Shown in pieces: positions 2,467 through 14,395 of a DNA stretch of 28,623 nt; the first letter of the stretch is position 1, and the number at the start of each line of letters is the position of its first letter. Under the pieces are notes generated by a model. The model ran no database searches. It was not told the DNA's origin and was given only the letters and a program-made list of their open reading frames with translations. Location: positions 1 through 28,623 of the IMG/VR virus record IMGVR_UViG_3300022221_000022; one strand, 5' to 3'. Made by a program: the position numbers and the translations under genes. The stretch is from a virus.

Positions 2467-2967
2467 TTAAAACCCTGTTATTTTATCGTTATTATCGCGG
2501 CGGCGGTATTTTGCGCGGCCGCATTGCTCCCGTTGTTTGTCGCGTAACCATTTTTCGGCCTGCTCTAACGCCGGTATAAAACCGTAATGGGTGTATATGT
2601 GAAATTTTTGACTACGCCGCCGCCCGCTTACGCTAATTATTTCGGCGTTAAAATAGGTTTCTGGAAAATCGCCGACTAATAAATCGTGATAAGTAATGCC
2701 CGGCCCTATACCGTTTAATAATTGAAACTGTTTTAGCTGGAAAGCTTCCGACCCGATAATTATATCGGCGAAGTGGTCGCGAATCGCCCGCGCTTTTAAA
2801 AACCGCTGGCCGTTCCGATTACCCGTCGAAAAGGTCGCCGGTATAAAGTCGGTTAAAGGTTTACCCTTCAACATGGGAACATAAATTAAAACCCCGTCGT
2901 CGCGGGCATATATATAGCGGTATTGAAAATCCTTGTATGTATATTGCCGCACGTTCCCCCCCCCCAT
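2467..2967 (-). CDS. Divergent AP2-like repeat protein with G10 tract at its start
   Basis: The product has 166 residues. Two degenerate AP2-like repeats can be traced at about 25-66 and 105-147. Each has the pattern of three beta-strands, an aromatic F, a basic G-x-R/K turn, and a helix ending in A-x-x-x-RD (GQRFLKARAIRD in the first, EQAEKWLRDKQRE in the second). The same helix signature occurs in the three neighbouring proteins, so they are paralogues. The start codon overlaps the upstream stop as TAATG. Ten consecutive G residues run from the third base of the ATG through codons 2-4, making expression sensitive to slippage. A sequence-specific DNA-binding role is inferred from the AP2 fold. 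Confidence 0.55.
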   Translation of the reverse strand: MGGGNVRQYTYKDFQYRYIYARDDGVLIYVPMLKGKPLTDFIPATFSTGNRNGQRFLKARAIRDHFADIIIGSEAFQLKQFQLLNGIGPGITYHDLLVGDFPETYFNAEIISVSGRRRSQKFHIYTHYGFIPALEQAEKWLRDKQREQCGRAKYRRRDNNDKITGF

Positions 2968-3434
2968 TATTCAAATTTTGCTTTTAATAATGCCCGCTCA
3001 GACACGACCGCGCCGTAATAGTCCTTTTCCCACGTTAAACGCTGGTCTATGGCTAAATCGAGCGCGCGCAGAAACCCCCATTTTTTCGGCGAATAAGTTT
3101 TAACCAGCGTCCGGCCGGTGTCCGGGTGTTTGATTGTTACTCTAAACGTCGTATATTCGCGGGTTTCGCCGTCTATTGTCCGGCGATTATGGGCTAATTG
3201 AACACCCATATTAGGGAACGTTCGTAAGCGCCCAGGCGGTACACGGCCGCGCTTTAATTGTTTGTCGCGGTGTATACGCGCGGCGTTATAGGCTTGTATT
3301 TTGCCGCCATACGCAACAAACCCGAACCATTTATACGACGTTTCCTTAATATCAATTTTAACCCGGACGGCGTAACCCGCCTTCGATAATGTAATACCAT
3401 AACTATCATTATTATTAGTTAACCTAGCCCCCAT
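2967..3434 (-). CDS. AP2-like two-repeat DNA-binding protein
   Basis: The product has 155 residues. Repeat 1 spans about 20-63 (strands YAVRVKIDI and KWFGFVAYGG, then helix AYNAARIHRDKQL). Repeat 2 spans about 93-141 (TTFRVTIKH, then the helix around ALDLAIDQRLTWEKDYYG). The repeat-2 helix is nearly the same as in the protein at 4469-4939 (AIDQRL-x-WEK-x-YG, then S-x-RA-x-L), so the two are recent paralogues. AP2 domains are known in phage and bacterial HNH endonucleases and mobile-element proteins, where they bind DNA. No nuclease motif accompanies them here. The gene is separated by three bases from its upstream neighbour and overlaps the next by TAATG. Confidence 0.65.
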   Translation of the reverse strand: MGARLTNNNDSYGITLSKAGYAVRVKIDIKETSYKWFGFVAYGGKIQAYNAARIHRDKQLKRGRVPPGRLRTFPNMGVQLAHNRRTIDGETREYTTFRVTIKHPDTGRTLVKTYSPKKWGFLRALDLAIDQRLTWEKDYYGAVVSERALLKAKFE

Positions 3435-3437
3435 AGC

Positions 3438-4175
3438 TTAGCCCCCTTCGGCCTCTAAAATCATTTCGTCGCGTCGGATTCTGGCGGCTTCGAGCGTTTT
3501 ACGTTTCCCGCCGAATTTGCTATACGCGAAATATTCGGAATATTCATAACCCCCGCGAACGAAGCGTACTTGCAGCCCCCCGCCTTGTACGTCGTTTATA
3601 TTTTTTTTATCTACCTTTCGTTTTTTTAAAGCCACGCTCGGCCCTCCCTGGTTTAGTTTTAATAAAAAAGCGTTAGCGGTGGAAAAGACAACCCCATACG
3701 CCTTTTTTTCCATTTCTAGCCTGGCCGCGATAGCCATTCGTATAGCTTGAGACTTCCCGTATTTCGCGACCGAAAAACATTTAGTATACCGCCGCCCGCG
3801 CTCGTAATCGCGCAACGACGCCCGGTAATAGTGGTATTTATACGTCCGGCCGTTTAATCGGTGTTTAATGTCTGTTATAAGTGTTACGCCTTCGTCGTAT
3901 CGTCGGCCGTGGTTGCATTCCGGCCATTTTGCGCGCTTTCTTAATTCACAATCGCGCCACGCTTTCGCGGCGGCTAATGCTTTACGCTTCCCGCCGAATT
4001 TTTGAAAGTTAAACCGTTTACGTTTATTTATTTTATTGTAAATCCCGCGCCCGATTATTTTACCGTTTCGAAAACTAACGAGCCACGCGACGCCCGCGCC
4101 GTTATAGCGTGTTTCATATATACCAAACATCGGCCCCGCTTGTTTTGTGCGGAAACTGACATTTTCAAGACTCAT
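3438..4175 (-). CDS. AP2-like three-repeat DNA-binding protein
   Basis: The product has 245 residues. Three AP2-like repeats are visible. Repeat 1 at about 29-82 contains KFGGKRKALAAAKAWRD. Repeat 2 at about 114-161 contains KYGKSQAIRMAIAARLEMEKKAYG. Repeat 3 at about 199-241 contains KFGGKRKTLEAARIRRDE. Repeats 1 and 3 share the FGGKRK-x-L-x-AA helix start. Repeat 2 matches the second repeats of the neighbouring paralogues. The linker at 180-195 is lysine-rich. I start at the ATG at 4175, which overlaps the upstream stop as ATGA, rather than at a TTG nine bases earlier. DNA binding by all three repeats is inferred; the target is unknown. Confidence 0.7.
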   Translation of the reverse strand: MSLENVSFRTKQAGPMFGIYETRYNGAGVAWLVSFRNGKIIGRGIYNKINKRKRFNFQKFGGKRKALAAAKAWRDCELRKRAKWPECNHGRRYDEGVTLITDIKHRLNGRTYKYHYYRASLRDYERGRRYTKCFSVAKYGKSQAIRMAIAARLEMEKKAYGVVFSTANAFLLKLNQGGPSVALKKRKVDKKNINDVQGGGLQVRFVRGGYEYSEYFAYSKFGGKRKTLEAARIRRDEMILEAEGG

Positions 4176-4447
4176 CGAGTACAACGCGCTTTATAATTGG
4201 ATTGCAACTTTTTAATATCGTTTGTAAGTCTGGACTTTATCCGAGTTCCATTCGAAACGATACTAGAGGCACAAAAAACCCAAAACCCGCCGAATAGCCC
4301 CCCGCTTACGTCCCCCGCCGACAAATTAATTAGTAAAAAAACCGCACTTACTAAGCCGAAAAACGACGCCGCAATAATTAAAATATTCAGCATTAATAGC
4401 GATTTTCTCATAGCGCGCCGCAATTTATAATATTGTTCGTCTGTCAT
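4172..4447 (-). CDS. Two-span small membrane protein
   Basis: The product has 91 residues. Two hydrophobic segments, about 17-41 (LLMLNILIIAASFFGLVSAV) and 47-65 (around GGLFGGFWVFCASSIV), are bounded by basic ends (KLRRAMRKS and KSRLTNDIKKLQ). Both termini are predicted to be cytoplasmic by the positive-inside rule. It is embedded between AP2-repeat genes and coupled to the next through ATGA. No family was recognised. Its place inside the AP2 operon suggests membrane tethering or a superinfection-exclusion type role, but this is speculation. Confidence 0.5.
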   Translation of the reverse strand: MTDEQYYKLRRAMRKSLLMLNILIIAASFFGLVSAVFLLINLSAGDVSGGLFGGFWVFCASSIVSNGTRIKSRLTNDIKKLQSNYKARCTR

Positions 4448-4468
4448 TCCCGCCCCTTTTCTTATTAC

Positions 4469-4939
4469 TTAATATTTTTTTAAAATCACAGCGCGGGAAG
4501 AAAACGACGCGCCGTAAATTTCCTTTTCCCACTTCAAACGCTGATCTATCGCAGCATTTAACGCCGCGTTATAGCTGTGTTTTTTGATCGACCATTGTTT
4601 AGTTCTAATAGTCTTTAATCGGTGGTCGTAAATGTGACTTTTAAACCCTTCGTATAAATATAACCAGTCGCCTTTTTTTCGCCAGTAAGAACGAAAACTA
4701 ACGCCCTTATTTGCTTGTCGTTTTAGATTGTAATTAAGCCACGGCGCGCGGTGTTCTAACAGTTTGTCCCGATGTTTTTTGGCGGCCTGCAATGAAATTT
4801 TTTTGTTACCGTAAACCCCATCGCTAAACGTTTTACTTGTTGGCGAGCCTTTCGCTGATAGCTTTACGCGCACAGTCCACGCGTGAGTATTTCCCGCGTC
4901 GATACGAGTAATTCCGAACATAATACCCGCCGGTTTCAT
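4469..4939 (-). CDS. AP2-like two-repeat DNA-binding protein
   Basis: The product has 156 residues. The N-terminus has MFGI followed by an AW-x-V strand, a block shared with the three-repeat paralogue at 3438-4175. Repeat 1 spans about 19-64 (WTVRVKL, then helix SLQAAKKHRDKLLEHR). Repeat 2 spans about 89-143 (WLYLYEGF, then helix NAALNAAIDQRLKWEKEIYG). The ATG overlaps the upstream stop as ATGA (4936-4939). Both repeats lack any HNH or integrase catalytic region, so the protein seems to be only DNA-binding modules. Family assignment rests on the strand-strand-strand-helix pattern and on internal repetition, not on a database search. Confidence 0.65.
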   Translation of the reverse strand: MKPAGIMFGITRIDAGNTHAWTVRVKLSAKGSPTSKTFSDGVYGNKKISLQAAKKHRDKLLEHRAPWLNYNLKRQANKGVSFRSYWRKKGDWLYLYEGFKSHIYDHRLKTIRTKQWSIKKHSYNAALNAAIDQRLKWEKEIYGASFSSRAVILKKY

Positions 4940-5316
4940 ATTGGTAACTCGGCATCTATTTTGCCCTGTTCATACCCCGCCGCGTAGCCGATAGAGTAGG
5001 CCGCTTCGATTGCGTTTGGCTCGCCATTTAATAGAGCCTGTAAGGCGTCAACCATTACCGGCGCAAGCGTCCCGCAAACGGCGAAAAACTCAGGTAACGC
5101 GACGTCGTAGTTATGGCCTAAATCTATAATTATGTCGTCCTGGTTTCTAATCCAAGACTTACCCGCCGCATTTGTGGTTATATACCACGGCGGCGGCGGC
5201 AAATCGTTTAATAAGGGCTTGATAAGTTCGAGTATGTCTAATAATGGGCGGCTATCTATCGCCTTTTTAAACGTTTGAAACTCTAAGCCGACTTGATTTA
5301 TATTAGTTTGTAACAT
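4936..5316 (-). CDS. Hypothetical protein coupled to the helicase gene
   Basis: The product has 126 residues, with predicted helical N- and C-terminal parts and a proline run LPPPPWY in the middle. The C-terminal end contains EAAYSIGYAAGYEQGK, a small-residue helix. The first 14 bases overlap the end of the helicase gene and its stop overlaps the next gene by ATGA, so it is translated as part of the same operon. I recognise no domain. A helicase partner is possible by position. Confidence 0.5.
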   Translation of the reverse strand: MLQTNINQVGLEFQTFKKAIDSRPLLDILELIKPLLNDLPPPPWYITTNAAGKSWIRNQDDIIIDLGHNYDVALPEFFAVCGTLAPVMVDALQALLNGEPNAIEAAYSIGYAAGYEQGKIDAELPI

Positions 5317-6568
5317 TTATTTCTAATTCCGTTATAAAACGATTTAAAATCGGCCCCGACTGTTTTTTTAGCGCGTCGAGCGTTTCGCCCTTTAACCGCC
5401 CCGACCGAACCGCCCAGGCTATATCGTTTAATGTTTTGTCCCAGTTTCCCGCGAAATTATATTTATTTTTAATAATCGCCAGCGCTTCGCTAACGGCTTC
5501 GGCGGGCTTTAAGCGGACTAAATAACCGTTAGTTAAATCGTCTAGCGACGAACGGCTATAAATGCTGGAACTATTCAGCCTGGGAGTCGAGCGCGTCGAA
5601 TCATCGCGGACGCGCCCCCCCGCGCCAGCATATAAAGACCACTCGAAACCCTCTAACGGGTCGCCGAGCTTTTCGCAATTATTGAAATGGTCTAAAACTA
5701 TGGCCTTATCTTTATTCGGCGCAATTCGTAAGCCGCGCCCTATTTGCTGGTAATAAAGCATTTTCGACTTTGTCGCGCGAAGTAATTGCACGCATTCGAC
5801 CGTCGGAACGTCTAACCCTTCCGATATGGTGTCGCAAGAGGTAACGACTTTAATTTCGCGGTTATTTAACGCGTTTAATATCCGCGTTCGCTTTGTTTCA
5901 CTCGTCGCGCCGTGTATACAGTCGGCAGGGATACCGGCCGCGTTATAGATATGGCTTAATTTCTTAGCCTCGCCGACCGACGAGCAAAAAGAAAGAGTCG
6001 TTAAACCTTTGGCCCGTCGTAACCATGTTTTTACCGGGTCGCCGCTTGGTTCGCCCGACTTGGGCCGCCATATTTCAGGGGGGACGAGGAAACCGAGGTT
6101 AATTAGGTCTAATATGCTTGGCCCTTCTATGGCGGCCTCGAAAACCCCGCCTAGCCCCTTTCCGTCGGTTCGAAACGGCGTCGCGGTGGTACCGAATGTA
6201 ACCGCTTTAGGGTTCGCGTCGGCAATTTCGCGCCAAGTAGCGGCCTCTATGTGGTGCGCTTCGTCGAATATAATCAAATCGGCCCACTTTGCGAGACTAA
6301 CCGTATTAGCGTCTTGAACCGTCGCGACTTCAACGCCGACACACCCTAACGCTTTTAAGTGCGCCCGCGTTTGCGATAATAGGTGCCGGCGGTGTACAAA
6401 AATAACGACGTTTTTACGTTTACGAGCCGCCCGCGAGGCAAGTTCGCTTAAAACGGGCGTTTTACCCCCTCCCGTCGGTAAAACGTATAAAACACTCTTA
6501 CGCCCACTTCTAAATAACGTTTGCGCCTGTAATACGGCTTCGGCTTGATAGTTTCTAAGTGTTAACAT
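5303..6568 (-). CDS. SF2 DEAH-box helicase, RadD-like
   Basis: The product has 421 residues. All main superfamily 2 motifs are visible: Q-motif-like RNYQAEAV at 5-12, Walker A PTGGGKT at 31-37, Walker B DEAH at 102-105, motif III GTTATPFR around 126-133, and motif VI QQIGRGLR near 275. The order and spacing match the RadD/UvsW-like DNA helicases. E. coli RadD has a C-terminal zinc finger; I see no CxxC pair here, so this is a shorter relative. It would use ATP to remodel branched or damaged DNA. It sits third in a ten-gene minus-strand operon, ahead of the AP2-repeat genes, which points to a DNA-handling role for the operon. Confidence 0.85.
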   Translation of the reverse strand: MLTLRNYQAEAVLQAQTLFRSGRKSVLYVLPTGGGKTPVLSELASRAARKRKNVVIFVHRRHLLSQTRAHLKALGCVGVEVATVQDANTVSLAKWADLIIFDEAHHIEAATWREIADANPKAVTFGTTATPFRTDGKGLGGVFEAAIEGPSILDLINLGFLVPPEIWRPKSGEPSGDPVKTWLRRAKGLTTLSFCSSVGEAKKLSHIYNAAGIPADCIHGATSETKRTRILNALNNREIKVVTSCDTISEGLDVPTVECVQLLRATKSKMLYYQQIGRGLRIAPNKDKAIVLDHFNNCEKLGDPLEGFEWSLYAGAGGRVRDDSTRSTPRLNSSSIYSRSSLDDLTNGYLVRLKPAEAVSEALAIIKNKYNFAGNWDKTLNDIAWAVRSGRLKGETLDALKKQSGPILNRFITELEINVTN

Positions 6569-7543: not shown

Positions 7544-7578
7544 AAAAAAACGACGGTAATAAAAACCGTCGTTTTTTT
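7544..7578. terminator. Strong bidirectional terminator
   Basis: A perfect 14-bp stem is formed by 7544-7557 and 7565-7578 with a 7-base loop. The core is CGACGGT/ACCGTCG and the outer stem is an A-run facing a T-run, so the RNA ends in U residues in either direction. It separates the minus-strand operon promoter from the attachment region. Confidence 0.8.
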
Positions 7579-7653: not shown

Positions 7654-7700
7654 TGGTGCCGGCAAAAGGAGTCGAACCCTTGACCTACTGATTACAAGTC
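7654..7700 (-). other. attP core: 3' part of tRNA-Thr(TGT)
   Basis: On the minus strand this is the last 47 bases of a tRNA gene: end of the anticodon stem, loop CTTGTAA (anticodon TGT, Thr), TCAGT strand, variable region AGGTC, T-arm with TTCGACT loop, acceptor strand TGCCGGC, A73 and encoded CCA. Similarity stops at the 5' side of the anticodon stem: upstream bases cannot pair with TCAGT, so no complete tRNA is present. Tyrosine integrases of temperate phages commonly use such 3' tRNA segments as crossover sites, and the integrase gene begins 258 bases away. Integration would restore the host tRNA gene. Confidence 0.85.
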
Positions 7701-14200: not shown

Positions 14201-14395
14201 ATGCTAGTTTTACAGCGGCGAGAAAACGAAGTTATTAGAATCGGCGACGATATAACAATTACGATAGTCGATATTGACAGATACGGAAAAAAAGTACGAT
14301 TAGGAATCGACGCGCCGGGCGAAATATCGGTACATCGCGAAGAGGTATACCGGCGAATCGAAGCGGCGAAAGGTAACGGTAATATAAAATGTTAA
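14201..14395 (+). CDS. csrA: CsrA-family RNA-binding regulator
   Basis: The product has 64 residues, close to bacterial CsrA (61). The two RNA-contact blocks are intact: strand 1 [21 protein letters not shown] (bacterial form L-x-L-x-RR-x-x-E) and strand 5 with [19 protein letters not shown], including the VHREE arginine (about residue 46). A small insertion (DRYG) extends the turn before VRLGI. CsrA binds GGA in 5' leaders and represses or activates translation. A phage copy could replace or compete with host CsrA. It sits in the early operon between a nuclease and a membrane peptide, and its end overlaps the next frame. Confidence 0.9.

Follow-up and report, generated by a model that had tools for sequence, protein, structure and literature searches.

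Clustered double-AP2 genes in a phage operon as possible diversified DNA-binding regulators

The window analysed here is an entire contig (C342; 28,623 bases) belonging to a 2.1-Mb assembly of 387 contigs. This contig is a phage, as it encodes an integrase, an excisionase-like gene, a repressor, a replication-initiation gene and an endolysin, and its large terminase shares 55% identity with Roseobacter phage terminases. Judged by position and translation, the contig end looks as if it falls within a tape-measure-like gene, so that the phage would be incomplete. Four genes on the minus strand, for which the coordinates and strand given in the initial annotation were correct, are the subject of this study: gene A (2467–2967), gene B (2967–3434; 155 amino acids), gene C (3438–4184; 248 amino acids) and gene D (4469–4939; 156 amino acids). 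Genes B and D each encode a double-AP2 protein of two units, that of D being stand-alone and having the layout nearest to the bacterial family described below, while gene C encodes two family units followed by a C-terminal third unit of the first type. Gene A is a divergent fourth member with a clear unit 2 and a degenerate unit 1. The four genes had been described as tandem neighbours; a minus-strand open reading frame of 91 amino acids (4172–4447), with hydrophobic stretches, sub-threshold Pfam matches and no secure family, separates C from D. Upstream of D and overlapping it lies an open reading frame of 126 amino acids (4936–5316, minus strand) with no family match, which is presumed to belong to the same operon and also overlaps the superfamily 2 helicase (5303–6568, minus strand; ResIII and Helicase_C; phrog_16-like) that was correctly placed two genes upstream. 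Downstream of A, a minus-strand open reading frame of 196 amino acids (1875–2465) has no family match and, judged by eye, possibly an N-terminal helix-turn-helix.

The AP2 operon sits between the integrase and the lysis genes, diverging from the former and converging on the latter. Between the operon start and the integrase there is a perfect 14-base-pair hairpin with T-rich ends (7544–7578), which is likely to be a terminator. Near the integrase, 47 bases (7654–7700) resemble the 3' part of a tRNA-Thr gene in reverse orientation; this stretch, which is flanked by phage genes on either side, is likely to be the attP core. A second copy is absent from the assembly, and the 60 related genomes yielded a single near match; the contig may thus represent a free phage form or a binning error. 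Across the whole contig GATC is strongly depleted (14 observed against 44.7 expected), and CCGCGG and ATCGAT are absent (17.1 and 8.7 expected, respectively), as if restriction sites had been avoided. A CsrA-like protein, identified from its translation, is encoded at 14201–14395 and has a tblastn match (E 3e-8) in another AP2 phage (G442, see below).

Against the Pfam AP2 model (PF00847), C scored 26.8 bits (E 6.7e-6) and D 11.1 bits, both below the curated gathering cut-off of 33.3, and A and B had no match. Since the genes lie below this cut-off, their assignment as AP2 proteins leans on their relatives and on predicted structure. Six of the eight bacterial relatives tested scored above the gathering cut-off (34.2–43.3 bits), and a profile of the double-AP2 family, built without the genes of this contig, matched C at 100.2 bits (over two stretches), D at 76.9 and B at 44.3. 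The AP2-like fold initially proposed was supported by structure prediction with AlphaFold2; a fold search of the PDB yielded no significant match to a solved AP2 domain. The model of D contains two strand-strand-strand-helix units (mean pLDDT of 89), and that of A contains such a unit at position 2 (pLDDT of about 90–95), with unit 1 at low confidence (about 50–75); in B and C the three-stranded sheet and helix were assigned by alignment alone. Eight of the nine repeats originally counted are supported, with two, three and two of them in B, C and D, and the ninth, unit 1 of A, is degenerate. The proteins are basic (pI 9.7–10.4, with D at pI 10.4 and a net charge of +23). As had been proposed, they carry no attached catalytic domain: searches of Pfam, NCBIfam and PHROGs revealed no catalytic or other domain in A–D, including no HNH nuclease domain, and nothing useful came from NCBIfam or PHROGs.

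Genes B, C and D are mutually similar (blastp E 9e-18 for B versus D, and 2e-14 and 6e-16 for the others), and comparisons of like units among them gave z-scores of 7–19. Unit 1 pairs with unit 1 (B1/D1, z 12.6) and unit 2 with unit 2 (B2/C2, z 19.2), whereas units 1 and 2 of B do not (z 0.0); the duplicated object was therefore the whole two-unit gene and not a single unit. A tree with 55 relatives (58 sequences) groups B, C and D in a single clade (support 99/91), although the branches are long and, according to a warning of the tree program, groupings of this kind can be spurious. Independent support for duplication in place, as first suggested for this locus, comes from repeats visible in the DNA itself, namely a 45-nucleotide stretch shared by B and D (84%) and one of 50 nucleotides shared by units 1 and 3 of C (72%). 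The proteins now share only 30–36% identity with one another. Gene A has no detectable pairwise similarity to the other copies (z ≤ 1.7); it scored 14.8 bits over unit 2 on a profile made from sequences outside the contig, whereas none of 4,000 shuffles of A exceeded 8.1. Clear paralogy thus applies to B, C and D, with A as a divergent member recognized through the outside profile, giving three and probably four copies in all.

The family to which these genes belong was traced using a degenerate DNA pattern for the motif [FY]GGKxxALxxAxxxRD, for which fewer than about ten chance matches were estimated. The pattern matched 105 stretches across 84,980 bacterial and archaeal genomes and seven in viral contigs; a pattern for the second unit recovered no family member. 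Ninety of the bacterial stretches encode free-standing two-unit proteins, mostly of about 150–210 amino acids, from at least ten phyla, including Pseudomonadota, Nitrospirota, Calditrichota, Planctomycetota, Verrucomicrobiota, Balneolota, Bacteroidota, Acidobacteriota, Chloroflexota and Rhodothermota. Members are also found on plasmids of Agrobacterium and Rhizobium (Rhizobiaceae), where some are already labelled 'AP2 domain-containing protein' (for example, Agrobacterium vitis WP_234636846.1). The view that AP2 domains of phages and bacteria usually come joined to a nuclease or integrase is not supported, given these roughly 90 stand-alone homologs and the existing plasmid annotations. The phage proteins share with the bacterial family the two-unit layout, the unit 1 motif, the AxxxAxxxR end of unit 2, a high pI and the absence of a catalytic domain. 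In 384 other genomes of the source's class neither profile found a match, so that recent copying of a class-wide gene does not by itself account for the phage genes. Clustering of the neighbours of the bacterial copies revealed no partner conserved across lineages. On the A. vitis plasmid pAvCG78b (L161, 4612–13384), the last position in a stretch of type VI secretion genes, among them VgrG, DUF2169 and DUF4150, is taken by a double-AP2 gene, after which comes an HU-family gene; other Rhizobiaceae may offer a similar context, to judge from the neighbour clustering. No experimental study of stand-alone double-AP2 proteins was found in the literature searched.

Other phages carrying such genes were found by a relaxed pattern scan of viral contigs followed by a profile check, which yielded three further contigs from IMG/VR. 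G440 (44.7 kb) has two adjacent AP2 genes converging on the lysis genes, in G441 (40.5 kb) two adjacent copies lie next to the integrase and diverge from it, a third being located elsewhere, and G442 (41.2 kb) has one AP2 gene. G440 and G441 are unrelated phages, and in both the pair neighbours a regulator-like gene, which in G441 matches Rrf2 (50 bits) and in G440 has a weak match, below threshold, to a Crp-type helix-turn-helix. Among 36 bacterial genomes, 25 carried a single copy and 11 carried two or three, always on different contigs; none had adjacent copies, and no second copy lay near any of the 91 loci checked. The bacterial family therefore has one copy or two to three dispersed copies, whereas the present phage has three to four clustered ones, one with a third unit. 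With the present contig left out because it had been picked for its array, adjacent copies in two of the three phages against none of the 36 bacterial genomes corresponds to a hypergeometric probability of 3/741, or about 0.004, for a small sample found with one motif that misses divergent copies. The presence of side-by-side copies in phages and in no bacterial genome checked suggests that the phage gains a number of distinct DNA-binding specificities from them. The family itself is known; it is the clustered double-AP2 array in phages that is unusual.

Several other searches of viral sequences were negative. Searched by tblastn, 50,697 phage records contained no significant match to gene C or to either of two bacterial relatives, and viral contigs likewise gave no hits when searched with single proteins or three-row alignments. 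A match in L006, of the same genus (E 0.004), is not a homolog, as it sits in an unrelated gene. Six IMG/VR contigs (L013–L016, L018 and L019) encode proteins of 685–1,059 amino acids with a single AP2-like unit in the N-terminal part, and L017 (IMG/VR; 6024–6353) encodes 110 amino acids with one AP2-like unit and an apparent C-terminal helix-turn-helix. The initial annotation had further suggested that the AP2 proteins could work with the neighbouring helicase. This partnership is not supported: tblastn found no relative of the helicase in G440, G441 or G442, contigs that may themselves be incomplete, so that co-occurrence with AP2 arrays is unsupported, and helicases of this type are common in phages, occurring in 1,711 records of the same collection in which gene C had no match.

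The reading that we favour, with a probability of roughly one half, is that a stand-alone double-AP2 gene was duplicated whole within the phage operon and that its copies diverged into several DNA-binding regulators. An ancestral two-unit gene of the bacterial type would have entered the phage and undergone whole-gene duplication inside the minus-strand operon, for which B, C and D provide the evidence and which is likely for A, and C would then have acquired its third unit. By analogy with other AP2 domains, each protein would probably bind double-stranded DNA through basic residues on its sheets. The copies would most likely recognize different sites, given their low mutual identity and their differences at sheet positions conserved in bacteria. 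In the family, R12 is conserved in 97% of members, R24 in 55%, and position 36 is basic in 87%; D keeps all three positions, B keeps 24 and 36 without 12, and C, for which the alignment is uncertain, keeps 36 without 12 and 24. One would expect such a pattern had D retained the ancestral site while B and C shifted to other sites, although a loss of constraint can look similar to a new specificity, and the divergence may reflect weak constraint. The copies would then most likely serve as small regulators or promoter blockers of phage or host DNA and not form a uniform coat. DNA-binding domains of homing endonucleases have been turned into regulators in the cases of CapR and the plant AP2 factors (PMC10448857), and AP2 proteins have been proposed as regulators of anti-CRISPR (acr) loci (PMC10732046). 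Scans for repeats and promoters turned up no convincing array of binding sites, with 13 promoters found against 10.1 expected, and pointed to no bound site, repeat array or promoter target.

A regulatory role is preferred to masking or counter-defence, in which the copies would coat or mask phage DNA, or chosen sites on it, against restriction or host nucleases, or would silence host DNA. The strong basic charge of the proteins would suit this explanation, as would the restriction of adjacent copies to phages and the position of the genes as a small accessory cluster between the integrase and lysis genes, which we infer to be a usual place for cargo. However, the marked sequence divergence of the copies speaks against a simple coat protein, most bacterial genomes have one homolog and the AP2 genes have no defence-related family matches; masking is a rather unlikely reading. 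A much less probable explanation is that the genes derive from HNH-AP2 homing endonucleases, have shed the nuclease and are now decaying. In Xanthomonas phages, decay to AP2 fragments is on record for HNH-AP2 genes (PMC2248197), and unit 2 of the relatives matches the Pfam AP2 model as such enzymes do. However, all four open reading frames are intact, and a two-unit stand-alone layout with invariant residues kept across many phyla is not what decay would yield; this family-wide conservation already largely refutes the idea. It is similarly improbable that the unit pair acts as tandem double-stranded-RNA-binding domains, since, although proteins of that type were the best sensible matches in a PDB fold search (E 0.015 at best, with no match at E ≤ 0.001), the phage proteins are related in sequence to Pfam AP2 at the profile level, and the weak matches in a viral-library fold search include HNH homing endonucleases.

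Compared with known systems, proteins A–D share an AP2-type DNA-binding unit with the HNH-AP2 homing endonucleases of phages (IPA-HNH genes; Xp10 type), but they lack the HNH domain and contain two to three AP2 units each. By description, they resemble the AP2 proteins of anti-CRISPR loci (phiCDHM13 gp27 and relatives; 159–196 amino acids), which are likewise small, stand-alone and located in phage or mobile loci; regulation of the accessory locus has been proposed for these proteins, and no acr gene was identified in the present phage. With plant AP2/ERF and apicomplexan ApiAP2 factors the common feature is the AP2 fold; the individual units had no detectable pairwise similarity to AtERF1 (z ≤ 0.7). 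Some plant AP2/ERF or ApiAP2 factors carry two AP2 domains. To our knowledge, a regulatory function of AP2 is established solely for these eukaryotic proteins.

A broader and more speculative proposal, which we consider doubtful at present, is that a double-AP2 protein of bacteria has been taken up by phages time and again and multiplied there into diversified tandem arrays for host take-over or for masking phage DNA from host defences. If this were true, a phage gene array would constitute a set of DNA-binding specificities, a strategy for which no description was found in the literature searched. Multi-copy arrays in unrelated phages offer a small and testable entry to the function of double-AP2 proteins. 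They also bear on the passage of AP2 from the mobile genes of phages and bacteria to the large regulator families of plants and apicomplexans.
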